From a virus: a DNA stretch of 64,000 bases. Where the stretch lies: the IMG/VR virus record IMGVR_UViG_3300009177_000031, positions 24,310 through 88,309 of that record; one strand, given 5' to 3'. A program made the position numbers and the translations under genes. The notes beneath the pieces are model-generated. The model was not told where the DNA came from. It searched no databases and saw nothing but the letters and a program-made list of their open reading frames with translations. Below, in pieces: positions 5-63,757 of this stretch (within the stretch, counting starts at the first letter, position 1; each line of letters begins with the position of its first letter).

Positions 5-3000
5 GTGCGCGGCTTGATGGACCGCTACCGCAAAGCGCTGCACGAAGATCCGAAGGTGCAAGCGCTCGCGCAAGCCGCAGCGGAGAAGCGCGAAGCCGAG
101 CGCAACGCGTTCTACCTGACGTGCGAGCACACCGCGGAGGAGTTCTCGCCGCTCGCCGGCGATCTTGTCACGAAGGAGGACTTCGAGGATCTGACGTTCA
201 AAGCGACCGCTGCAATGGCGCAGATGGGTCTCATCGAGCGCGGTGGCAAAGGCAGCGTTGCTCAGCGCCGCATGCGCGGTGCAATCGTTCCGAAGTCGAG
301 CATGCTGTTGCAGGACAAGCGCAACATGGGTTCGCTTTGGAAGGACGATCAGCTCGAACGTCTCAGCGCGCCGCAGCTGATGGCGGTGCACATTGCAGTC
401 GATGCGCAGGAGTCGTTCTCGAAGGACAACACCTACGAGTACGAGCCTGGTGCGCCAAACGCGAACCGCGACCGCGTGTTCGATCTCATTTGCAGCAAGC
501 TCGGCGTCGACCCGGACGATCAGGTCGCGAAGAACACGCTGAAGCGCAAGCTGGAGAAGACGACGGAAGCGACGCTGCGCGCGATGACGAACTACAACAC
601 CGGACAGGATCCGATGTTCGCGCTCGCGATGACGAAGCGCATCTGTGACATCTACAAGAACGCCGATTGGCTAGAAGACCACAAGAAGAAGGTCGCCGAG
701 GAGCAATCGCGCATTCAGGAGATCCTCGCTGCGCAAGAGGACACGTCGTTCGAGCCTCCACCGTCGATGGTAAACGGCGTTTGGAACGGCAAGACGCTGA
801 AGGATGCGAACAAGCCAGAGAAGGGCGTTTGGGCTCCGTTCGAGTACCAGAAGAAGTACATCAACTGGATGCTCAAGGCGAAGCGCGGTGTGATTGCAGC
901 CGATGCCGGCATGGGCAAGACGCCGATCGTGATCGCGTTCCGTGAGCTGCTTGCATCGCAGGGCAAAGACGTTCCTGCCATTTGCTTCCTACCACCGTCG
1001 TTGATGGAGCAGTGGCCTGCGGCGATCCAGAAGTTCGCGCCAGAGAACGCCGACAAGATCCTCAACCTCAGTGGTCTCTCGTTGGAGGAGCGCAAGGTCG
1101 CTTTGCAAAGCGACATGGCGAAGAAGGCTCGCTACATCTTCATCAGCACCGGCACGCTCACCGGTGACGTGCCGGATCCGAACTCGACGGAAGACGAGAA
1201 CGATGGCACCGGTGGTTCTGACCACGAGATGGTCGAGATCCTGAAGAACCTCGAAGGCGCGGTGTTCATCGACGAAGCGCACCAAGGCGGTTACAAGAAA
1301 GCCGGCAACACGCGCCACGAGATTGCAAAGGCGGTGATGGAGGGTCGCGAGTACGCGTTCGGCATGACGGCTACGCCGATGCCAAACGATCCGATGGACG
1401 TCTATCACCTCGCGAACCTGTTTGCGCCTGGCAGCGTTGGTGACGCCGAGCTGTGGGCTGGTCGCACCGCTGGTGTGGCGTGGAACGAAGAGGAAGGTCG
1501 TTATGAGGTGTCGAACCCGGAGCACCTTGCAGAGCTGAACCAGCGCCTCAAGCCGTTCGTGTTCTACAAGAGCGTCAACGATCCAGACGTCGTGAAGGAC
1601 ATGGGCAAGGGTCTTCCGCAGAAGACCGGTGTGCACGAAGACTCAGCGATGCACGAGGGTGAGGGCGATCTGAATCTGTCAGGTCACTCGAACGCGCAGA
1701 ACGGTTTGTCGCAGCACGACTACTTCAAAGAGGGTGGTGTCATTGACACCATGATCGAGCTGCGCATCGCGCGTTTGGTGCGCGAGCGAGCGGAGAAGAT
1801 TGCAAACGGCGAAGTGAATCCTTCGACCGGTGAGCCGTACAAGGCGTACCACCCCAAGTTCCTTCAGCTGATGGCTGGCGGCATGAAGATCATGCTGCAA
1901 CGGCAAGCGTCGATCTCGCCAGCGCTCATCGATCACACGTATCGCAAGTCCGATGGTGGCGTTGCGCACTCGCCGAAGATCAAGGCGCTGTGCGATGACA
2001 TCGTCGCGCACTTCTCAAACGGTGGTCAGGGTGGTGACGACGCGAAGCCGCTCGTCGTGTTCTCATCGTTCCCTGGCAAAGCGTTTCCGCTCGTGCGCAA
2101 AGCGCTCGCCGAACGCGGTGTGGATCCGTCGCTCATCGAGACGATTGCAGGCGACGTCGCTCCGACGGAGCGCGGCTACATGCAGGACAAGCTGAACAAG
2201 GGCCACGCGAAGGTGCTCCTTGTCGGCACGATGTCAGGTGGCGCCGGTCTGAACCTTCAGGAAGCGGCGAACAAGACGCTGTTCCTCGATGAGCCGTGGA
2301 ACCCGGCTGCAAAGCGTCAGGCGATTGGTCGCGTTTGGCGCACCGGACAGAACAACGTCGTGCACGAGAAGACGTACCGTTCGGTTGGTACGTACGACTC
2401 GGTGGTGGAGCAGAAGATCGCAGGCAAGCAAGCGATGGTCGCTGCGCTTCTCGGAAAGGACATGCCGACGGAGGCATCGTTCAAGCCGGACACGTCGATC
2501 AAGGAGCTGCTTGGTCGCGTGAAGGGCACCGACTACACCGAGGATCAGATCAAAGCGATCATGGAGAACTCGAAGAACTACGATTTGGCTTCGAGTGAGC
2601 ACAAGCAAGCCGAACAGCTTTTGCAATCGATGCACGATGAGGATTGGAAGGAGAAGGCCGGTGGTCAGGGCTTCGGTGGTGGCGTTTCCGCAACGCTGAC
2701 CGACAAGGACTTCGAGCCGAACAAGGAAGCGCAGAAGACGCTCAAGAACAAGGGCGCGCACAAACTCACCGAAGCGTTCGATGAGAAGGAGTTCCGCGGC
2801 AAGTGGGAGATGGATCGCGATAAGCGCCGCTCGAAGCAGAACTACGAGATGGCGAACCTGATGGCTGACGTGTACAGCCAGCAAGGGAACAAAGAGAAAG
2901 CTGACGAGTACAAGCGTCGCGCTGACGAGCTTGCCGAGAAGTACCCTGAACTCGGTGGTGCAAAGGACGGTGGTGCGAAGAAGAAGGGCAAGGACGAGAA

Positions 3001-3628
3001 GCCGAAGGCCGAGAAGAAGGGCGACGAGAAGAAGCCTGCGAAGGGTGGCGACAAGAAGCAATCGAAGGAAGGTGGCGAGAGCGAGCAAACGAAACCGCCA
3101 CCGCGCGCGACTGCAACGGTTGCTGACGCCGAGCACGAGCTGAAGCAAAAGGCGAAGGCGCAGGACGCGCACACCAAGACGCAAACGGAGAAGGTGAAGC
3201 AGCGCAAGCCGCAAGAGACGACGAACAAGCTCGGTGGCAATCCTGACGAGCAAGAGGCGCCGGTCAAGCCGGCGACCTTGAAGCAGCCGGTGGTGAAGCG
3301 CAACGAAGCGCTCGGTGTCGACTTCCACTCGAAGGACAATCCGTTCCCGGAGAACGGACGCAAGGTGAAGGGCACCGACGTCTCGAACGCGGAAGCGAAC
3401 TACGTACTCGATGTGCTGCACAAAGAGAAGAAGCTGAAGTCGTGGGACGAGTTCATCACGACGCACATCAAGCCGGTTTGGGACGAAGAGGACGGTCGCA
3501 ATCCGTTCTCGATGAAGGCTGCGCACGAGTACGTCGGCAAGATCGTCGACGCGATCTCGAATCAAGGCTTGATGACGCTCAACGAGCCGATGAAGGCTGC
3601 GAAGAAGCAGACCAAGAAGGAGAAGTAG
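5..3628 (+). CDS. SNF2-family DEAH helicase, 5' end possibly outside window
   Basis: ATP-dependent DNA translocase/helicase of superfamily 2, SNF2 type. Seen: Walker A with GMGKT near residue 301, DEAH box in VFIDEAH near 420, motif III (GMTATP) near 455, and a helicase C domain with GGAGLNLQEA and the arginine-finger motif GRVWRTGQ near 775. After about residue 960 comes a Lys/Glu-rich low-complexity linker, then a short ordered C-terminal segment. The first start codon is a GTG at position 5, but the frame is open to the window edge, so the gene may begin upstream. It lies just upstream of minor head genes; phage P1 DarB is a known example of a virion-packaged SNF2-type protein used against restriction. 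A similar role here is inference from position only. Confidence 0.9.
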   Translation: MRGLMDRYRKALHEDPKVQALAQAAAEKREAERNAFYLTCEHTAEEFSPLAGDLVTKEDFEDLTFKATAAMAQMGLIERGGKGSVAQRRMRGAIVPKSSMLLQDKRNMGSLWKDDQLERLSAPQLMAVHIAVDAQESFSKDNTYEYEPGAPNANRDRVFDLICSKLGVDPDDQVAKNTLKRKLEKTTEATLRAMTNYNTGQDPMFALAMTKRICDIYKNADWLEDHKKKVAEEQSRIQEILAAQEDTSFEPPPSMVNGVWNGKTLKDANKPEKGVWAPFEYQKKYINWMLKAKRGVIAADAGMGKTPIVIAFRELLASQGKDVPAICFLPPSLMEQWPAAIQKFAPENADKILNLSGLSLEERKVALQSDMAKKARYIFISTGTLTGDVPDPNSTEDENDGTGGSDHEMVEILKNLEGAVFIDEAHQGGYKKAGNTRHEIAKAVMEGREYAFGMTATPMPNDPMDVYHLANLFAPGSVGDAELWAGRTAGVAWNEEEGRYEVSNPEHLAELNQRLKPFVFYKSVNDPDVVKDMGKGLPQKTGVHEDSAMHEGEGDLNLSGHSNAQNGLSQHDYFKEGGVIDTMIELRIARLVRERAEKIANGEVNPSTGEPYKAYHPKFLQLMAGGMKIMLQRQASISPALIDHTYRKSDGGVAHSPKIKALCDDIVAHFSNGGQGGDDAKPLVVFSSFPGKAFPLVRKALAERGVDPSLIETIAGDVAPTERGYMQDKLNKGHAKVLLVGTMSGGAGLNLQEAANKTLFLDEPWNPAAKRQAIGRVWRTGQNNVVHEKTYRSVGTYDSVVEQKIAGKQAMVAALLGKDMPTEASFKPDTSIKELLGRVKGTDYTEDQIKAIMENSKNYDLASSEHKQAEQLLQSMHDEDWKEKAGGQGFGGGVSATLTDKDFEPNKEAQKTLKNKGAHKLTEAFDEKEFRGKWEMDRDKRRSKQNYEMANLMADVYSQQGNKEKADEYKRRADELAEKYPELGGAKDGGAKKKGKDEKPKAEKKGDEKKPAKGGDKKQSKEGGESEQTKPPPRATATVADAEHELKQKAKAQDAHTKTQTEKVKQRKPQETTNKLGGNPDEQEAPVKPATLKQPVVKRNEALGVDFHSKDNPFPENGRKVKGTDVSNAEANYVLDVLHKEKKLKSWDEFITTHIKPVWDEEDGRNPFSMKAAHEYVGKIVDAISNQGLMTLNEPMKAAKKQTKKEK

Positions 3629-4096: not shown

Positions 4097-5027
4097 GCAA
4101 CGAGAGAAGATCAGCAAGCTGATTGCTGACCATCACCTCGCGTTTGCCGTCGAGGTGCTTGGGCCTGACGCGATTCCGCGCGCTGAGCTTCAGCGTTTGC
4201 AGCGTGAAGGCATCCTGAAGCAGCACGAAGTCGAGCACGCGCAGGTTGCGATTCCAGCTGCGCACATGCTTGGCAAGCAAGCAGCGTCAAACGCGCAGCT
4301 CGCGCGCATGCCGCCAGAGCAGTTCTGGCAGTTCATCGAGCACGCACCGCCGCAGTTCAGCAAGCACGATCTCGACGCGATGAACGCGGCGAAAGCTGTG
4401 GTTGGTCGTTTGATCGTCAACCTCGGTGTCGGTTTGCTCAACGAGTTCGAGAGTGCCAGCCATGAAGAAGCAGCAAAGCTTCGTCAGGAAGCGTTGGGGG
4501 TTGTACAACACGAGGTTGCGCTCGGCATCGCACGACGTTCTGCGAAGGAGAAAATCCAGCGTCGCTTGCGAGACAAGCTCGGCGAGTCGGAACGCAATTG
4601 GGCGCTTGTGGTACAAACCGAACTCCACAACGCGCAGGAGTACGGCAAGGCGCTCGGACTCGGCGCTGACGGGCGAGACCCGATCGTCTACAAGCGGCCA
4701 CGTCCTGACGCTTGTCGTTTCTGCAAGCTCCTGTACCTCGTCGATGGTGTACGTCCTCGTCTCTTCCGTCTCTCAGTGCTCGTGAAGAACGGCACGAACT
4801 ACGGAAAGCGTGCGCGACGTCCTTCGTTCCGTGGTGCAGGCGCAACGGAATGGAAGGCGACCGTCGGCTGCGTGCATCCTGGTTGTCAGTGCGAGATGCA
4901 CCAGATGCCGGAAGGCATGACGTTCGACAAGCAGGGGAAGCTCGTTGCGTCTGTGCGCAAGAGCATCGAGCCTGACGTTCTCACCGCCGATCTTCGGAAG
5001 CTCATCGGTCACCGGTGCGTCGCATGA
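4074..5027 (+). CDS. MuF-like minor head morphogenesis protein
   Basis: 317 residues. The ATG at 4074 is chosen because GGAGCAAAGG precedes it; the frame is open 63 bases further up, but those codons lack a ribosome site. The C-terminal half carries the features of the phage Mu gpF / SPP1 gp7 minor head family: a helix with VQTELHNAQEYGKALG, a CRFC pair, and the terminal GCVHPGCQCEM cysteine/histidine cluster typical of the MuF fold. Known members sit on or inside the portal region of the capsid and can be ejected with the DNA. It overlaps the following kinase-like gene by ATGA. Confidence 0.8.
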   Translation: MGKPLSDKQREKISKLIADHHLAFAVEVLGPDAIPRAELQRLQREGILKQHEVEHAQVAIPAAHMLGKQAASNAQLARMPPEQFWQFIEHAPPQFSKHDLDAMNAAKAVVGRLIVNLGVGLLNEFESASHEEAAKLRQEALGVVQHEVALGIARRSAKEKIQRRLRDKLGESERNWALVVQTELHNAQEYGKALGLGADGRDPIVYKRPRPDACRFCKLLYLVDGVRPRLFRLSVLVKNGTNYGKRARRPSFRGAGATEWKATVGCVHPGCQCEMHQMPEGMTFDKQGKLVASVRKSIEPDVLTADLRKLIGHRCVA

Positions 5028-24245: not shown

Positions 24246-26450
24246 ATGGCTGACATCACCGAAGACCCTAGCGTAAAGATGCCGCCACTCGCCAATTGGG
24301 TGGCTCAAACGTTTGCGTATGGCTTCTTGCTCGATCGCTCGGCAGTGCTGGACTACAGCGGCAACGCTGCGCCCAATCAGAGCGGACGCTCTGGTTTCGA
24401 CAGTCCGCAGCCTGACGATTTGCATTTGCTCAACCTCAATCCGCAACAGCTGTCGATGCAAGAGCCGCTCGCTACGGCTATCGCTCCCACGCAGGGCGGT
24501 GGTAAGTTCATCGAGTCGCGCGGTGGCGTGATGAAGACGCTGACGATCCACGGCACCACCGGCTTCCTTCCGCCTGTCGCTCCGTACGCGACGCACATGC
24601 GTCAGCCGTCATCGCTCATCGACGTGTCGAGCACAGGCACCGAGCTGATCACGTCGCCGAATCCGTCGGTGCAACAGAACCAAACCGGCTTCTTCGAGTT
24701 CTACCGTTTGCGGAAGCTGTTCCGGCAATTCGGTTTGGAACGCAAGCAAGGCAAGGCAGTGCAAATGCACTGGCTGGACTTCAAGGGTGACGAGTTCTGG
24801 ATGGTCGAGCCGCAGTCGTTCGACATGGACCGCACGCGGTTCGGCTACGTCTACAACATCCGTTGCAACCTGATCATGCCTTCGCAGCTGAAGCTGAAGC
24901 ACAAGGACCAAGGTCAGGATGCGAAGATTCGTGGTCTCGATTCGCGCGACTACGGCGCGGCGTTGCTGAAGAACCCGATCAACGGTGCGCTCGATCCGTC
25001 GCAGCTCAGCTTGCTCACGCGCATGACGCAGATGGCGAACGGTGCAGCTGCGTTCGTCAACAACTACGCGCTCGGCGTGGTCGGCTTGAAGCTGCAAGGC
25101 ATCCTCAGCGCAATCGGTGCCGTGCAGCAATTCTTCTCGGACATCGCAGCGGTTCGGCGAGCTGTGCTCGACACCGCGCTGAACCTCTACAAGCAAACGT
25201 ACAGCGCGATCCAAGGGCTGTCGGATGCGTGGGATGACGTCACGCCGGATGCCTTCAAGAAGGACATCAACGAGTGGCAGATCGAAATGCAGGGCGTGAC
25301 CGAAGGGCTGATGAACAACCATTTGCTCACGTTCGGTGCAAACGCGCTCGGTTTCCAGAGGGAGAACCAGAAGTACACCACACCGCTCGCTGTCGGCGGC
25401 ACGAAGACGGCGTTGCTCACCGAGACGTCGAACGCGAGCCAACAGGTGACGCAGGTCAGCGCTGGTCTCGCACTGATCGGCAACATCGAGCAAATGATGT
25501 CGACGACGGCAATGCGTGCCGAGGACATCCTCAGCGGCGAGACGATCTTCGACATTGCGCAGCGATGCCTCGGTGATGCAAACCGCTTCATCGATCTGGT
25601 GCTCATCAACCAGCTGAAGCCACCGTTCATCGTCTCTGACCTTGCAAACAAGCTTCCTGGCACGCTCGCGTGGACGGAGAAGATCCTCGTTCCTGCGAGC
25701 GAGGAGTCCGCGTCGATCAGCTCGGCCGCACCGGTGCAATCCGCTGTGCCTTCGTTTGCAGGCTCTGTTGCAGTGGTTCCTGTTTTTCCGCTCAGCCCTA
25801 CGCTGCAATTCCTCATCACGACGCCGCAGGTGCCGTACCGCGATGAGATGTGGCTCGGTTTCACGGTGACGTGGTTGACCGGGAGCAACGCTGGTCAGAC
25901 GCGCGTCATCACCGACAACACGAACCAGGGTGACGGTACGACGCTGTTCACGTGCAATCGCGCGCTGTCGAATCCTGTCGTGGTCGGTGACACGTTCTCG
26001 GTGTCGCTCATCCTGTTCACGTCGCGCAAACCGGTGACACCGGAGAACGCGGCGTACGGCATGGACATCATGGGTGTGTTCGCGAAGTCGAACGGCATCA
26101 ACACGGATGGCACGATCGACATCTTGCTCGGTCCGACGAAGGACCTAGCCACGATCGAGGGCATCGAGAACTTCGAGCAAGCCATCACGCTCGCTTTGCA
26201 AACGCCGCGTGGCTCGAACAAGTCCAATCCGCTTTACGGCACGTCGAACGTGATCGGCCGGATGTTGGAGCCGAACGTTCTCGCGCTGAATGTCTTCTAC
26301 GTTCGTCAGTCGCTGTTGCAGGATCCGCGAATCGCTGCGGTCGAAAGGCCGCAGATGGTTTACGACAACGACACTGGAGCGCTCTACTTCACTGTCTACG
26401 TCCGTCCTGTCCGAGTGCAGCGCACTTTCTTCCTTCGCATTCCAGTCTGA
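24246..26450 (+). CDS. Baseplate protein with LysM domain and gp25-like C terminus
   Basis: 734 residues; the ATG at 24246 follows the spike stop by 4 bases, and the open frame upstream lies inside the spike gene. Residues about 440-500 look like a LysM domain (GETIFDIAQRCLGDANRF, PGTLAWTEKILVPA). The last 150 residues contain IEGIENFEQAITLALQTPRG and LLQDPRIAAVERPQM, which resemble the gp25/gpW baseplate wedge core (helix, then the E/D-P-R turn). A single protein thus seems to combine two baseplate functions usually encoded separately. The N-terminal 420 residues are unassigned. Confidence 0.68.
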   Translation: MADITEDPSVKMPPLANWVAQTFAYGFLLDRSAVLDYSGNAAPNQSGRSGFDSPQPDDLHLLNLNPQQLSMQEPLATAIAPTQGGGKFIESRGGVMKTLTIHGTTGFLPPVAPYATHMRQPSSLIDVSSTGTELITSPNPSVQQNQTGFFEFYRLRKLFRQFGLERKQGKAVQMHWLDFKGDEFWMVEPQSFDMDRTRFGYVYNIRCNLIMPSQLKLKHKDQGQDAKIRGLDSRDYGAALLKNPINGALDPSQLSLLTRMTQMANGAAAFVNNYALGVVGLKLQGILSAIGAVQQFFSDIAAVRRAVLDTALNLYKQTYSAIQGLSDAWDDVTPDAFKKDINEWQIEMQGVTEGLMNNHLLTFGANALGFQRENQKYTTPLAVGGTKTALLTETSNASQQVTQVSAGLALIGNIEQMMSTTAMRAEDILSGETIFDIAQRCLGDANRFIDLVLINQLKPPFIVSDLANKLPGTLAWTEKILVPASEESASISSAAPVQSAVPSFAGSVAVVPVFPLSPTLQFLITTPQVPYRDEMWLGFTVTWLTGSNAGQTRVITDNTNQGDGTTLFTCNRALSNPVVVGDTFSVSLILFTSRKPVTPENAAYGMDIMGVFAKSNGINTDGTIDILLGPTKDLATIEGIENFEQAITLALQTPRGSNKSNPLYGTSNVIGRMLEPNVLALNVFYVRQSLLQDPRIAAVERPQMVYDNDTGALYFTVYVRPVRVQRTFFLRIPV

Positions 26451-47950: not shown

Positions 47951-47966
47951 ACAGAGGAGAAAGACC

Positions 47967-49331
47967 ATGTCGAAATTCGAGCTGAGCATCAACGTGAAGT
48001 ACCTCCCGGAGTGGGGCGTGTGGGAAGGCATCCGCGAGCTGATCCAGAACGGCAAGGATGCCGAGGTGGAGCACAACGCACCGCTGACCGTCGACTGGAA
48101 GAACGGCACGCTGCGCATCGAGAACGAAGGCGCGTTGCTGACGCGCGAAGCGCTCCTGTTCGGCACGACGAGCAAGGGCGGTCGCGCTGACCTGATCGGC
48201 AAGTTCGGCGAGGGTCTGAAGCTCGGCGTGCTCGCGCTGGTTCGCGCAGGACGCTCGGTGACGATCCGCAGCGGTGGCGAGGTGTGGGAGCCGACGATCG
48301 CTCGCAGCGAGAAGTACGACGCCGACGTGCTCGTGTTCGACATCAAGACTGGACGCGAAGAGAAGAAGCGCGTGCGCGTCGAGATCGACGGCGTGATCGA
48401 GAGCGAGTGGCTGGACTTCCGCAACCGCTTCCTGTTCCTCAAGGACAAGCGCGAGAGCAACAGGAAGCACATCGTGTCGACGTGGTACGGCGATCTGCTT
48501 CTCCACGAGCGCAACGCCGGCAAGCTGTACTGCAAAGGCATCTACGTTTGCGATGCGAACACGCGGTTCGGCTACAACTTCAAGGATGCCGAGCTGGATC
48601 GCGATCGGAAGATGATCGCGGACTACGACCGCCGCGCGAAGATGGGCTACATCCTCAACGAAGCGGCGAACATCGAGCCGACGAAGGTGCTCGATTCGTA
48701 CATCAGCATTGTGGAGTCGCCTGACAGCGAGGAAGGGAAGGGCATCAACGAGTACCGCCTCCCGGCGCCCAAGATCACCGCTGCGATCGTGAAGCGTTTC
48801 AAGGAGAAGCATGGCGACAACGCTGTGCCGGTCCGCTCGCTCGCCGAGTCGCAGGACGTCGAGCACTTCGGTGTGCGCGGCGTCGTCGTCTCCGAGGCGC
48901 TCGCTGCGATTCTGAAGAAGGATCTCGGCAACGCGGAGACCACCAAGAGCAAGTTCGCCAACTCGACGTTGCGCGAGTTCAGCTACGGCGATCTGACGCA
49001 CGACGAGAAGGCGGCGCTGTTCAACGCAATCGACAAGGTGAGCTGCGGAAACGCATCGCTCCTTGATGGCTCGAACGCGTACGACACGAAGCTGCGCAAG
49101 CGCATCGCAATCGTCGAGTTCCGCGATGCGAACCTCAACGGCCTCCACCACGGTGAGCGCATCGAGATCGCGCGCAAGATGCTCGCTGACGAGTTCGAGA
49201 CGCTTCGCGTGCTCGTGCACGAGCTGGCGCACGACGCTGGTAGCGATGGCGACAAGAGCCACGTAGCGCAAATCGAACGCACGTGGGCGAACATCGCTCG
49301 CTACCTCAGCGGCAAGGCGGTGCGCTCGTGA
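47967..49331 (+). CDS. GHKL ATPase fused to HExxH metalloprotease motif
   Basis: 454 residues, site AGAGGAG. N-terminal GHKL/HATPase fold: N-box GIRELIQNGKDAE with E24 and N28, TLRIENEGALL (a G1-like strand), and G-box IGKFGEGLKLGVLAL. Middle region of about 250 residues without known domain. The C-terminal end has LVHELAHDAGSDGDKSHV: HExxH with H418, E419, H422 and a candidate third ligand H432. It resembles phage proteins annotated only as ATP-binding protein. The stop overlaps the receiver gene (GTGA), so the two are made together. It is neither a normal histidine kinase (no H-box or sensor seen) nor MutL-like. Confidence 0.8.
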   Translation: MSKFELSINVKYLPEWGVWEGIRELIQNGKDAEVEHNAPLTVDWKNGTLRIENEGALLTREALLFGTTSKGGRADLIGKFGEGLKLGVLALVRAGRSVTIRSGGEVWEPTIARSEKYDADVLVFDIKTGREEKKRVRVEIDGVIESEWLDFRNRFLFLKDKRESNRKHIVSTWYGDLLLHERNAGKLYCKGIYVCDANTRFGYNFKDAELDRDRKMIADYDRRAKMGYILNEAANIEPTKVLDSYISIVESPDSEEGKGINEYRLPAPKITAAIVKRFKEKHGDNAVPVRSLAESQDVEHFGVRGVVVSEALAAILKKDLGNAETTKSKFANSTLREFSYGDLTHDEKAALFNAIDKVSCGNASLLDGSNAYDTKLRKRIAIVEFRDANLNGLHHGERIEIARKMLADEFETLRVLVHELAHDAGSDGDKSHVAQIERTWANIARYLSGKAVRS

Positions 49332-49771
49332 AGATCCTCCACATCGAAGACGACGCGTTCCTACAGCGCGCTGTGAAGCGCACGCTCGAACGTGCGTTTG
49401 GCGAGCACACGGTGGTGGAGAGCGTGGCTGACGCACCGACGGCGATTCGCTACCTACAGGCAGCGCTCGCGACGTTCGGCTGCTTCCACTACGACCACAT
49501 CATCAGCGACTACAACCTCACCGAAGGCACCGGTGGTGACGTGCTCGCGTGGATCAAGAACACCACCGACGCGATGCTCAACGACTGGCAAACGGCGTTC
49601 GACGGCAAGTCCTCGCGTCAGGTGTTGCTCGAACGCTTCACGTTCCTCACGGCGAATCGCGATGCGCTCGCGCTGCACGATCGGTTCATCGAGAAGCCAA
49701 TCCGGCCTAGCACGCTGGCGAGGCTTCTGAGCACGAAGGGACCGCTGCGCATCACGAACGAGATCGGCTGA
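49328..49771 (+). CDS. Response-regulator receiver-domain protein
   Basis: 147 residues, GTG start overlapping the previous stop. All receiver hallmarks are present: E7-D8-D9 acid cluster after ILHI, phosphoacceptor D61 in HIISDYNLTEG, T108 in FLTAN and K123 in IEKPIRP. There is no output domain; about 16 residues follow alpha-5. A stand-alone receiver whose partner is presumably the GHKL protein encoded with it, or host kinases. Insert of about 20 residues before T108 (NDWQTAFDGKSSRQVLL) is unusual. Confidence 0.82.
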   Translation: MKILHIEDDAFLQRAVKRTLERAFGEHTVVESVADAPTAIRYLQAALATFGCFHYDHIISDYNLTEGTGGDVLAWIKNTTDAMLNDWQTAFDGKSSRQVLLERFTFLTANRDALALHDRFIEKPIRPSTLARLLSTKGPLRITNEIG

Positions 49772-50156: not shown

Positions 50157-50660
50157 ATGAGCAATCACAATCAGCCCCACGAAACCATCACCGAGAACGT
50201 GCAGACCGTCGTCGACGGCGAGCGCAAGGTGCAGCCTGTTCTCGCGTTCCTCTGCGTTTACGAAATCAGCCGGCACTACGGCGGCGCTGAGGAAGGCGGT
50301 TGGTGGTACGACAGCTACACGTTCACCGGCGCTGCGTTCCCTTTCCAGGCGATGCAGGAGTTCGAGGCGCAGGTGCTCGAAGGCGACGACACTTCGAGCG
50401 GCACCGACGATCATCGTCAGATCTGGTACGACGAGGACACGAAGGAGTACAAGGCGTGGGTGCCGGTCGGTTTGCCGATCGTCACCGACGAGCCGACGCG
50501 CGTGCGTTTGGAGAGCGCGCGTGCGCACTTCATCGCGATGTTCGGCGAGCCTGACTCGCGCTACCGCTTCAGCGTCCGACCGCGCGGCGAAGACTTCGCG
50601 TATATCTACGAGCTTCGTCCTGGCGAGCGCGGTGAGCAACCGCGTCCGAGGTATTGCTGA
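50157..50660 (+). CDS. Hypothetical protein
   Basis: 167 residues, site AAGGAGAAGG. Contains VLAFLCVYEISRHYGGAEEG and a Trp/Tyr-rich WWYDSYTF segment; acidic, no membrane span. Ends close to the next gene (one base apart). Not recognised. Confidence 0.62.
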   Translation: MSNHNQPHETITENVQTVVDGERKVQPVLAFLCVYEISRHYGGAEEGGWWYDSYTFTGAAFPFQAMQEFEAQVLEGDDTSSGTDDHRQIWYDEDTKEYKAWVPVGLPIVTDEPTRVRLESARAHFIAMFGEPDSRYRFSVRPRGEDFAYIYELRPGERGEQPRPRYC

Positions 50661-59876: not shown

Positions 59877-60485
59877 GTGCCGGCGCGTCCAAACGGTGCG
59901 GTGATGGCGTGGTGGTACCTCACGTGCGGACCTGGAAACGCGCACTGCTTCATCGCGGTGTTCGTCCACAACGTGCGTGACGAGCTGATGGTGTGCATCG
60001 CCGAAGGGAAGTCGAGCATGCTCGGCTTTCCAAAGGACGACTACATCACGAAGCAAGGCTGGTGCTACGAGAGCGGCTCGCTCACCACGCGTCGCCAGGC
60101 GTACGGTCGAGCGCTGAAGTACGCGTACGAGATCGTGAGGGAGCGAATCAATCGCGACTTCAAATGCGCCGCACACTCGTTCAACGAGAACACCGGTACG
60201 GACGAAGACGCGGCGATGAGTAGGTGGGAGCGCATCCACGACACGTTGCAGAACCTCACGCTGTCGCAGACTCCCCGGCCGGACTGGTGGCCTACGAAGG
60301 GGAACCTCTGGTGGATGCCGAACCGCTCCTTGGAGCGGCGAGAAGATCTCCACCAGGAAGGGTTCGATCTCGTCGGTTTGGTAAACAGTGCACACAGCGC
60401 CACGAGCAAGCGGCGCAGGAAGAAGCGAAACCATGCTAGGACGTACCGCCGCGTCGGACGATTCCTCGTCCGTGCAAAGGACTAA
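59877..60485 (+). CDS. Hypothetical protein between CobS- and CobT-like genes
   Basis: 202 residues from GTG 59877 (GAGGGA upstream); ATG 59904 is also possible. Contains AWWYLTCGPGNAHCFIAVFV and GTDEDAAMSRWERIHDTL. C-terminal end is basic (KRRRKKRNHARTYRRVGRF). Position suggests association with the AAA+/VWA pair. Not recognised. Confidence 0.58.
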   Translation: MPARPNGAVMAWWYLTCGPGNAHCFIAVFVHNVRDELMVCIAEGKSSMLGFPKDDYITKQGWCYESGSLTTRRQAYGRALKYAYEIVRERINRDFKCAAHSFNENTGTDEDAAMSRWERIHDTLQNLTLSQTPRPDWWPTKGNLWWMPNRSLERREDLHQEGFDLVGLVNSAHSATSKRRRKKRNHARTYRRVGRFLVRAKD

Positions 60486-60489
60486 GGCG

Positions 60490-62634
60490 ATGTCGAAGAT
60501 GAGCCTGAACCGTCGTGCGATGCTGGAGTTGATCCAGCGTTACGAGCACGGAATGGAATCCGCGATCCAGATGCAAACGAGCCTCTACAACTTGAGGGTC
60601 GTTTTCGAGGGAACGCGCGCATTCACCGATGGCAACACGATCACGCTCCCAAACGTGCGCGTGTTTGCTCAGCACGACCACATCAGCGACGAGGACATCG
60701 AGAACGCTCGCGCGTACTTCATGGCGCTGCGCGGCTACGCGTGGCAACAGGCTGCGCGCATCGTCGAGAGCGATCTCGACTTCCTCAAGGTGTGGCAGGC
60801 GAAGCATGGCTCGTTTGCGCTCGCGCTGCACAACGCGCTCGACGACATCCGAATCGAGCATCGATTCGGCAAGACGGCGCAGGGCATCCAAGAGGCGATG
60901 GACTTCATGCGCGAGACGTGGCTGTGGCCACGCTACGTGCGGAAGAAGGAGCGTGGCACGTTCGACGTGATGTACGAGATGCTGGTCGGTTTGCAGTGCT
61001 TCATGAAGCACTACGAGTCGATCGAGTCGCATCCGCTGTGGAACGCGCTCGATCCTGCGGTGCAATCGTGGGTGCGCCGCAACCAGGACGATCTCGACGT
61101 CGCGTACGACACGCTCAAGATGGAGAAGCGCAAGGGCACCGAGCGCCTCACCGAGTGTGTCGAGCGCATGATCGCCCGGTGGAGCGAGGAGTACGCGCTG
61201 GTCGAGCCGCTGTGTCCGAAGTCGGAAGCCAAGGCTGTCGAAGACGACACCAAGGCGAAGCGAAAGGACACGCAGTTCGACAACTTCTTCGGTGCGCTTC
61301 AGAAGAAGCTCGGTGAGCAAAAGAAGAAGCTCGTCGGCACCGAGGAAGAGAAGCAGATGGACGAGATGGCGGACCTACTCACGAACGCCATGAAGCCTCC
61401 GCTTCTGTTCGTCACGCTCGGACCGCGCGTCACCACGTTCGTCTCTGCGCCGTTTGCAGGGAAGTACGTGCAGCGCGTGGAACCGGTTCCAGCGCCAGAC
61501 AACAAGGAAGGCTGGGAGCGGCTGACGCAGCTCGGTGCGAACGAGTCGCGTACGATCGTGCTGCACCCACCGGATCCGCGTTTGGAGCAAGCGCTCGACA
61601 AGGCGATGGGCGACCTGGTGGGCGCGATGATGAGCGCTGCGGCTGAGGTGCAGAAGGAAGCGCAGAAGGCAATCGACGACGCGCAAGCGCACATCGAGCG
61701 GTTGCCGGAAGACGAGAAGGCGTACCTCGTCTATTCGACGAAGAACGATCGCTTCGAGCGCACGCCAGAAGCATCACCGACGGACCTGAAGCGCATGCGC
61801 GATCAGGTGCAGCAGCACGTCGGTATCGTGAAGAACCGTTTGCAGGTGCTGCTACGTTCGCGTACGCGAACGCGGTGGCGCGGCAATCGCGAGGAAGGCG
61901 AGGAGTTGGATCAGAACTCGGTCGCCGACATCGCGATGGGTCGCATCCTGAACAACAACGACCCGAGGCCGTTTCGCGTCCGTGTCGAGTCCGACGACTT
62001 GCTCGACACCGCGTCCATGCTGTTGGTGGACTCGTCTGGCTCGATGCAGGGGCGCAAGCTTCAGCTCGCTCGGTGGGCTGCGCTGTGCTTCGCGGAGGCG
62101 CTTGACCTGTCGAAGATGCGCTTCTCGCTGGCTGCGTTTTCGTCCATCGAGGACGAATGGCAGGAGTCGTATCAGCACGCGAGCGAAGCGGACCGCGAGC
62201 TGTATGGTCGCTTCGGTGCGCTCTACATCGAGACGTGTAAGACGTTCGACGAACCATGGCGTGCGGTCGCAAACCGCGTTCCTCGTCTCGGTTCGGTGAA
62301 CGAAGCGAACTACGACGCGGATAGCGTGCGGTGGGCTGGCTCGCAGCTGCTAGCTCAGAAGGCGTCACGGCGCGTTCTGTTCGTGTTCAGCGACGGTTTG
62401 CCTGCAACGAGCGAGATGCCATTGCAGGTGGCTCGTCAGCAACGTCATTTGAAGGACGTTGTCAAAGCGCTGATGGGGCAAGGCGTCGAGGTTGTCGGCG
62501 TTGGCATCTGCGACGAAAGCGTTCGGTTCTACTATCCGAACCACGTCGTGATACACAACGCAAACGACCTGCCCAAAGTGGTCATGAACCAAATGGAGTT
62601 TTTGCTGCTTCACCGTCGCTCATCACGACGGTGA
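60490..62634 (+). CDS. CobT-like VWA-domain protein
   Basis: 714 residues from ATG 60490 (60499 possible); open frame further up overlaps the previous gene. N-terminal half helical with IEHRFGKTAQGIQEAMDFM, an acidic/Lys-rich middle, and a von Willebrand A domain with MIDAS motif DSSGS at 514-518 (LLVDSSGSMQGRK) and FVFSDGLPA near residue 635. Layout equals cobaltochelatase CobT: a scaffold whose VWA domain binds the AAA+ partner. No cobalamin gene is seen, so the function is not B12 synthesis in any visible way. Confidence 0.8.
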   Translation: MSKMSLNRRAMLELIQRYEHGMESAIQMQTSLYNLRVVFEGTRAFTDGNTITLPNVRVFAQHDHISDEDIENARAYFMALRGYAWQQAARIVESDLDFLKVWQAKHGSFALALHNALDDIRIEHRFGKTAQGIQEAMDFMRETWLWPRYVRKKERGTFDVMYEMLVGLQCFMKHYESIESHPLWNALDPAVQSWVRRNQDDLDVAYDTLKMEKRKGTERLTECVERMIARWSEEYALVEPLCPKSEAKAVEDDTKAKRKDTQFDNFFGALQKKLGEQKKKLVGTEEEKQMDEMADLLTNAMKPPLLFVTLGPRVTTFVSAPFAGKYVQRVEPVPAPDNKEGWERLTQLGANESRTIVLHPPDPRLEQALDKAMGDLVGAMMSAAAEVQKEAQKAIDDAQAHIERLPEDEKAYLVYSTKNDRFERTPEASPTDLKRMRDQVQQHVGIVKNRLQVLLRSRTRTRWRGNREEGEELDQNSVADIAMGRILNNNDPRPFRVRVESDDLLDTASMLLVDSSGSMQGRKLQLARWAALCFAEALDLSKMRFSLAAFSSIEDEWQESYQHASEADRELYGRFGALYIETCKTFDEPWRAVANRVPRLGSVNEANYDADSVRWAGSQLLAQKASRRVLFVFSDGLPATSEMPLQVARQQRHLKDVVKALMGQGVEVVGVGICDESVRFYYPNHVVIHNANDLPKVVMNQMEFLLLHRRSSRR

Positions 62635-62671
62635 GGCGAGAAGGCTTCAGCAAACCGAGAAGGAGATGCAG

Positions 62672-63757
62672 ATGGCAAAGCACGAAGAGATGATCAAGAA
62701 GCTGTTCACCAAGTACGTGAAGCCGATGAAGCTTCCGCCGCGCTTGGCTGGACAAATCAACCACGCGATGGAAGCGGCTGCGAAGAAGTCGAAGGGCGAC
62801 GTGAAGGCCACGAAGAAGGCCATCAAGGCGTACCTGACCGAGCGTGGCTACGATCCGGAAACCGGCAAGAAGCTTCCCAAGGCGAAGCGCGCGAAGGCGA
62901 AGAAGGAGGCAAAGGCGAAAGCGAAGGCTCGCAAGACACGCGAGGAGAACGACGACAACGGCGACGAGGAGAGGCCGAAGAAGAAGTCGAAGAAGTCCGA
63001 CGCCGACCCGGCGAAGGAGAAGCTCGAAGCCGCTGGCGCGAAGAAGGCGCTGAAGGGCGATGCTGACACCGGCGTTCCGGCTGGCAACATCGACCTGCGC
63101 AAGCTCAATCGGCCTACGATGAAGGGCATGGCGAAGGATCTCGGCATTGGCTACAAGAAGAAGTGGACCGACGACGAGCTGCGCACGAAGCTCGCGAAGT
63201 CGATGATCGGCATCGACGACAAGGTCATGAAGGAGATCGCGAAAGCGGATCCTGCCAAGATCGAGGGTCTCGACAACTGCATCGGCGTGTTGCTCGATCT
63301 CTCGAAGGCCATCTGCATCACGTGTCCGGCGCAAACGGACTGCCGCAAGCAGTTCGAGGCGCACCGCAGCGATGGCTTCAAGGTGTTCGCGACGCTTCAG
63401 CCTGGCTCGACGCAGAGCGATCCTACGGTCGTTCCTGCGGCGAACCTGACGAAGAAGTCGTCGCCGATGCCGAAGCCGGTCGATGCGTTCAACGCCGATC
63501 GCAAGATCGAGGTGTACGACTTCGAGAAGGTCAAGGAGCTTCCGAAGGTCGAAGTCGACGGTGCGAAGGTCAAGTCGAACATGGAGCACAAGGCGTTCCT
63601 GCGCGCGGTGAAGAAGACCGTGCCGGAAACGCTCGGCGAGTTCCGTGACGTCGTGATCAAGCACTACAACGCCGAGCCGACGGACACGGACGCGGTGAAG
63701 CTGACCATGTGGTTCGCGCGGTATTGCACCGCGCTCGAAGTCATCAAGTTGGTGTGA
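62672..63757 (+). CDS. Lys/Ala-rich hypothetical protein
   Basis: 361 residues; ATG 62672 lies 6 bases after AAGGAG (ATG 62666 is too close). Helical start (AKHEEMIKKLFTKYVKPM), a very Lys-rich, charged linker (residues about 65-120), then a folded part with CIGVLLDLSKAICITCPAQTDC, a four-cysteine cluster. May bind nucleic acid. Not recognised. Confidence 0.63.
   Translation: MAKHEEMIKKLFTKYVKPMKLPPRLAGQINHAMEAAAKKSKGDVKATKKAIKAYLTERGYDPETGKKLPKAKRAKAKKEAKAKAKARKTREENDDNGDEERPKKKSKKSDADPAKEKLEAAGAKKALKGDADTGVPAGNIDLRKLNRPTMKGMAKDLGIGYKKKWTDDELRTKLAKSMIGIDDKVMKEIAKADPAKIEGLDNCIGVLLDLSKAICITCPAQTDCRKQFEAHRSDGFKVFATLQPGSTQSDPTVVPAANLTKKSSPMPKPVDAFNADRKIEVYDFEKVKELPKVEVDGAKVKSNMEHKAFLRAVKKTVPETLGEFRDVVIKHYNAEPTDTDAVKLTMWFARYCTALEVIKLV

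Follow-up and report, generated by a model that had tools for sequence, protein, structure and literature searches.

A phage GHKL ATPase fused to a candidate zincin protease domain and paired with a receiver in two phages

INTRODUCTION

Clamp-type GHKL ATPases dimerise and close on ATP, and proteolysis that depends on ATP is usually the work of AAA+ machines. Here, we describe a gene whose 454-amino-acid (aa) product joins a GHKL ATPase to a zincin-like domain and is followed by a stand-alone receiver gene. It lies in a 64,000-nucleotide (nt) window, the whole stretch of DNA that was analysed, at positions 24,310 to 88,309 of the 88,309-base viral record IMGVR_UViG_3300009177_000031.

Several described systems share parts of this architecture. 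PHROG 6077 is a phage family of ~366 aa without an assigned function, its members being annotated as "hypothetical" or "histidine kinase-like ATPase." RIIA orthologues consist of a GHKL domain and a highly variable C-terminal domain and are described as counter-defence proteins (PMC7824862). VcSduA combines a GHKL domain with a nuclease, and the GHKL domain is proposed to control the C-terminal effector (PMC12137116). On the protease side, SprT/Wss1 proteases, which act on DNA-protein crosslinks, cut DNA-bound proteins, as described for SPRTN (PMC5127644).

The window protein has the N-terminal 326 residues in common with PHROG 6077, but the family model stops before the zincin and most cultured members lack one. 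It resembles RIIA in its ATPase fold, phage-borne setting, and variable C-terminal end; RIIA proteins, however, are ~725 aa long, no such protease appears in the RIIA descriptions found, and the sequence profile match to T4 RIIA is insignificant. Like Wss1, SPRTN, and SprT-like proteins, it has a helix with HExxH behind a small sheet and a third His at the next helix, but it is fused to a GHKL ATPase, has HExxH-x9-H spacing, and scores below the family cutoffs. MORC and paraMORC proteins share the GHKL fold, and the cellular relatives described here also lie near restriction-modification (RM) genes, but there is no MORC sequence match, and the MORC paper mentions no protease domain (PMC2292703). 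In VcSduA, the effector is a PD-(D/E)xK nuclease in a host defence protein, whereas here it is a zincin in a phage protein; no match to the Shedu DUF4263 nuclease domain was found in the window protein or its family. The parts are of known kinds. The open-access literature found contains no description of a GHKL-protease fusion, of how widely it occurs, or of the optional receiver coupled to it. We propose, with about an even chance of being right, that the protein is an ATP-gated metalloprotease in which a dimeric GHKL clamp controls an SprT/Wss1-like zincin acting on DNA-bound or complexed proteins.

RESULTS

Both active sites are conserved together

The open reading frame with E24, N28, IGKFGEGLKLG, and HELAH at 418 to 422 is exactly as the initial annotation gave it (Table 1), and it represents a true gene, because its product matches other phage proteins over the full length at 41 to 54% identity. 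Single-sequence scans of viral contigs returned no relatives of the 454-aa protein; those in viral contigs were obtained only with family-alignment scans. The set comprises 122 distinct viral relatives. Of these, 47 have a length of 425 aa or more, and HExxH stands at the right place in 39, none of which belongs to the shorter group.

Phage relatives were grouped into 35 clusters (90% identity) chosen for having HExxH, and therefore the independent facts are the fixed position of the motif, the DGxxxH that accompanies it, and the conservation of G392 alongside. Invariant in all 35 are R23, E24, Q27, N28, D31, G66, K70, G78, G83, W107, G191, D213, R214, G392, H418, E419, and H422, so that homologues keeping N28, H418, E419, and H422, for which the initial annotation had proposed a search, do exist. 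In an alignment of phage, archaeal, plasmid, and cultured-phage relatives, E24, G78, G81, G83, G392, H418, E419, and H422 are invariant. HExxH occurs in 2.2% of shuffled versions of the window protein. Judged from sequence conservation, HELAH in the window protein is not a chance motif, and the joint retention of both active sites is well supported.

The N-terminal part has a clamp-type GHKL fold

A profile match to PHROG 6077 covers aa 1 to 326 (E value 8e-57; 322 of 366 positions), and all 55 members of the family alignment match this family. The N box and G2 loop that mark the GHKL superfamily with its Bergerat fold are present; in the N box, E24 is the predicted general base and N28 the predicted Mg ligand, and the G2 loop recurs in archaeal and plasmid relatives. 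Some family members match the Pfam domains HATPase_c or HATPase_c_3, and PADLOC returned only TmtA matches, limited to the N box and G2.

An AlphaFold2 (AF2) model of the full protein, built with 55 relatives, has a mean predicted local distance difference test score (pLDDT) of 91.7 and a predicted template modelling score (pTM) of 0.80. Its Foldseek matches include Hsp90/TRAP1 (E values 5e-10 and 2e-9), an asfarvirus topoisomerase (3e-6), and MORC4 (2e-5), as well as topoisomerase ATPase domains, topoisomerase VI, GyrB, and MutL. The N-terminal GHKL fold seen by the initial annotation is thus borne out by the profile, the invariant motifs, and the Hsp90 match, and the ATPase fold is well supported. 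No HisKA-type (H-box dimerisation) Pfam match was found in the window protein or family members, in agreement with the earlier remark that no H-box is visible. A two-component histidine kinase is rejected, as there is no H-box family match and the fold is that of Hsp90, MORC, and topoisomerases; the two-component frame in which the protein had first been placed is not supported. On the model, the N-terminal part is a clamp-type GHKL ATPase and not a histidine kinase, because the Foldseek matches are Hsp90, TRAP1, topoisomerases, MORC4, GyrB, and MutL.

The C-terminal domain is zincin-like

In the model, HELAH closes a helix that follows a small sheet of three strands, and the last helix begins with H432. 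This predicted arrangement looks zincin-like rather than like a random surface helix, the outcome that the initial annotation had named as fatal to a protease. An HExxH followed by a third His in the correct order, as expected of a zincin, is found in H418, E419, H422, and H432; the first three, named from the start as the protease motif, hold in 35/35 clusters, and H432 is to be added as the likely third ligand. Of the surrounding positions in the phage clusters with HExxH, D427 is kept in 34/35, G428 in 32/35, and G392 in 35/35.

Searches with this domain point to Wss1 and SprT. Wss1 accounts for five of the six best PDB matches in a Foldseek search with the isolated domain (probability 0.96, E value 0.2), and a profile match to Wss1 (5xbn) has an E value of 0.07. 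Among 28 members, 12 have SprT-like Pfam matches (best, 8e-5) and 6 match Zincin_1, the SprT-like score of the window protein itself lying under the Pfam gathering score. These results are each weak, yet concordant. The zincin-like arrangement is well supported.

Table 1. Features of the ATPase-zincin gene and the receiver gene, in window coordinates
Feature	Position	Strand	Remarks
Shine-Dalgarno-like AGAGGAG, 7 nt 5' of ATG	47953..47959	+	Read from sequence
GHKL ATPase-zincin fusion gene	47967..49331	+	ATG start, 454 aa; full-length relatives known
N box R23-E24-xx-Q27-N28-xx-D31	48033..48059	+	R23, E24, Q27, N28, D31 invariant in 35/35 clusters
G2 glycine loop IGKFGEGLK, aa 77-85	48195..48221	+	G78, G83 in 35/35; G81 in 34/35
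C-terminal region modelled as protease domain, aa 284-454	48816..49328	+	AF2 pLDDT 88
HELAH zinc/catalytic motif (H418, E419, H422)	49218..49232	+	35/35 clusters
H432, probable third zinc ligand in DGxxxH	49260..49262	+	32/35 clusters
Stand-alone receiver, GTG start overlapping GHKL stop (GTGA)	49328..49771	+	147 aa; Pfam Response_reg 5e-6
Receiver phospho-acceptor D61	49508..49510	+	Common to L132 receiver
Receiver conserved K123	49694..49696	+	Common to L132 receiver

The receiver is an optional partner

The initial annotation described a receiver of 162 aa overlapping the GHKL stop. The overlap and the residues D61, T108, and K123 stand, and together with D8/D9 they complete the set expected in a Response_reg match that is slightly under the cutoff in bits; the start, however, is the GTG at 49328, which gives 147 aa. 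A good Shine-Dalgarno site precedes the GHKL gene; the receiver has none. Translation of the receiver is probably coupled to the GHKL gene, since it lacks a Shine-Dalgarno site and its GTG lies inside the GTGA that ends the upstream gene.

A homologous receiver in phage contig L132 (GTG at 4317) has a 16-nt overlap with the GHKL stop and is 34% identical to that of the window, with IEDDxxLQRAxxRT, D61, and K123 in common; its key residues are DD, D, S, and K. The idea that the pairing is unique to the window phage is rejected, as L132 carries a second pair, and this pairing in two phages is well supported. No neighbouring receiver was found elsewhere, either with Response_reg over 39 + 13 records or with a two-receiver profile in the flanks of all zincin loci, and it is missing beside the gene in the close relatives L014, L015, L020, L133, and L214. 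The gene pairing, whose conservation the initial annotation had proposed to check, therefore extends to a second phage but not to close relatives. In the tree, L014 is the sister of the window gene and L015 that of L132, and neither L014 nor L015 has a receiver; it seems unlikely from the sequences that two homologous overlapping pairs arose on separate branches by chance. Further downstream of the receiver site, L014 retains a gene matching window positions 50157-50660, which makes the receiver an optional cassette within a syntenic region; it cannot be essential to the basic function of the GHKL-zincin protein. At L014 6498-7300, where the window has the receiver, two successive open reading frames share the starting stretch FACQGDDLYRRFGALNQ (one frame), a repeated leader.

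Records with a receiver anywhere number 8/43 among zincin phages versus 3/40 controls, an unconvincing enrichment given that the control contigs are shorter. Receivers of the cREC type (PF20274) occur in four of these phages, never adjacent to the GHKL-zincin gene.

Distribution and evolution

PHROG 6077-type relatives are present in 112 phage records, with 24 to 32% identity among the matches listed; these proteins are ~355 to 400 aa long and end before the protease domain of the window protein. The family-alignment scan brought up full-length relatives in numerous viral contigs of up to 435 kb, and a second scan added more. Cultured full-length members are found in Moorella phage MTATph1 (HETLH) and Exiguobacterium phage vB_EalM-132 (HETIH), and plasmid relatives include one on Salinibacter ruber pSR56. 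Cellular matches are rare in the sampled genomes (2/151, 3/245, and 5/250), some without the protease end. The module first described as phage coded is indeed found in dozens of phages, but the family also extends to plasmids and archaea. In one archaeal homologue (L130 6973-7365), only the protease half is still open, as in a decaying copy.

In a phylogeny built from the ATPase part, nearly all short forms belong to one clade (support, 98/92), beside which stands the long-branched zincin form L039; other zincin forms surround the clade. Both a single gain of the zincin and an early fusion followed by loss are possible histories, because this tree is unrooted.

Genomic neighbours

Baseplate genes and a gene for a major head protein are also part of the record. 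DnaB, helicase, and primase genes lie upstream of the ATPase-zincin gene in the window; a primase is also present at the L014 locus, a helicase and single-stranded DNA-binding protein are encoded near the gene in the Moorella phage, and DNA ligase and helicase genes are near it in the Exiguobacterium phage. In a 233-kb phage contig, a homologue of Ku (nonhomologous end joining) is encoded two genes 3' of the GHKL-zincin gene (L017 6835-7608), and in a 435-kb phage contig, a second GHKL/sacsin-like protein of 548 aa is encoded directly 3' of it (L018 6740-8386).

On the Salinibacter ruber plasmid pSR56, a GHKL-HELAH protein is encoded between HsdS and HsdR of a type I RM operon (L111 3935-9177), followed by a separate SprT-family protease gene. 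An archaeal GHKL-HETSH gene comes straight after Rad50- and Mre11-like genes (L121 5787-10816); a general Mre11-Rad50 linkage is rejected, as it occurs in one genome and an 86% identical homologue (L127) lacks both. Other neighbours of archaeal homologues are an Mrr-ResIII-methylase enzyme, DUF499 with a ThsB-type TIR protein (L130), and a GHKL/AAA_13 pair.

Elsewhere in the window, positions 5-3628 encode a 1,207-aa helicase-like protein with a DarB-like antirestriction match (phrog_62, phrog_10089), and positions 60388-62634 encode a protein matching CobT/cobalamin-biosynthesis phage families (phrog_17276, phrog_5298). The 363-aa open reading frame 3' of the latter (62666-63757) may, we presume, encode a candidate CobS/MoxR-like partner.

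DISCUSSION

How might a GHKL ATPase and a zincin act together? ATP binding would probably cause the GHKL module, of the Hsp90/MORC/topoisomerase type, to dimerise, and the closed dimer would encircle DNA or a protein complex like a clamp. The linker region and the C-terminal zincin, with HELAH and H432, would then cut proteins in or next to the clamp, presumably with ATP hydrolysis as part of the cycle. In the phage, the most likely role would be the removal or cleavage of DNA-bound or complexed proteins, candidates being crosslinked or stalled proteins in phage DNA metabolism or host defence and nucleoid proteins. The coupled receiver of the window phage and one relative would be an optional regulator or targeting partner, outside the core.

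Several observations weigh against this clamp-protease. The G1 box (DxGxG) is not found in the window protein, which has a degenerate ENEGALL; archaeal and Moorella-phage relatives have a DDGPGL-type G1 box. Every Wss1/SprT match of the C-terminal domain is weak. The third ligand varies, H432 being kept in 32/35 phage clusters and cellular and cultured-phage relatives having D..REFE-like motifs. The DNA link comes from a few nonconserved neighbours in regions that in phages commonly hold DNA genes. In L024 and L025, the ATPase core is intact while EEVSH replaces HExxH and the loop is shortened, probably a protease-dead form as far as sequence can tell; the motif is also lost in the long relatives L046, L052, L053, L056, L059, and L065, and ~360-aa forms without the protease domain are common in cultured phages. 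The existence of such motif-lost relatives and short forms means that the ATPase also serves a purpose where no proteolysis takes place.

The main rival, unlikely but serious, is RIIA-type counter-defence, in which a defence complex of the host is bound and neutralised by the GHKL clamp, the protease being one of the variable C-terminal effectors of this class and sometimes lost. In a fold search of BFVD, RIIA proteins dominate from rank 9 on, after the family's own members (best E value 1.4e-9), and the GHKL-plus-variable-C-terminus architecture of RIIA is found here; protease-less short forms are common, and the cellular relatives lie in defence neighbourhoods. However, hhalign against T4 RIIA gives a probability of 12%, covering the N box and G2 only, so that a sequence relationship to T4 RIIA was not found, the function of RIIA is itself obscure, and there is no candidate host target. 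The two readings may overlap, because RIIA is a GHKL protein with a variable C terminus and the next fold neighbour.

Considerably less probable is the reading offered by the initial annotation, a signalling module in which the ATPase-protease is gated by, or acts on, a phospho-receiver and rewires host two-component signalling. The GTGA-coupled receiver has all its key residues, and two separate tree branches carry homologous coupled receivers; but the receiver is not adjacent in the five close relatives or at any other zincin locus, there is no histidine kinase family match, and other receivers in such phages lie far off and occur in control records too. Least probable of all is that the protease site is a structural or vestigial zinc module beside a functional, chaperone-like or DNA-compacting MORC-like ATPase: some relatives did lose the motif and keep the ATPase, but zinc binding alone would not require E419, a residue present in 35/35 clusters (selected as HExxH) and kept in every inspected cellular and cultured-phage relative with the domain.

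Returning to the clamp-protease, it is possible, and we hold this a little less firmly than the function of the single protein, that these proteins make up a class of ATP-gated proteases of their own, with a GHKL clamp and no AAA+ ring in control of the zincin, found in phages and patchily in prokaryotic mobile and defence loci, with a receiver as optional input in some phages. The GHKL-zincin fusion would then be, if true, another route coupling ATP to proteolysis. It links the phage and host-island versions of one architecture. More than 100 sequenced phages carry a short form of this GHKL family, a structural neighbour of RIIA, without an assigned function, and an active site that lends itself to clean mutation puts the family's role within reach of experiment.
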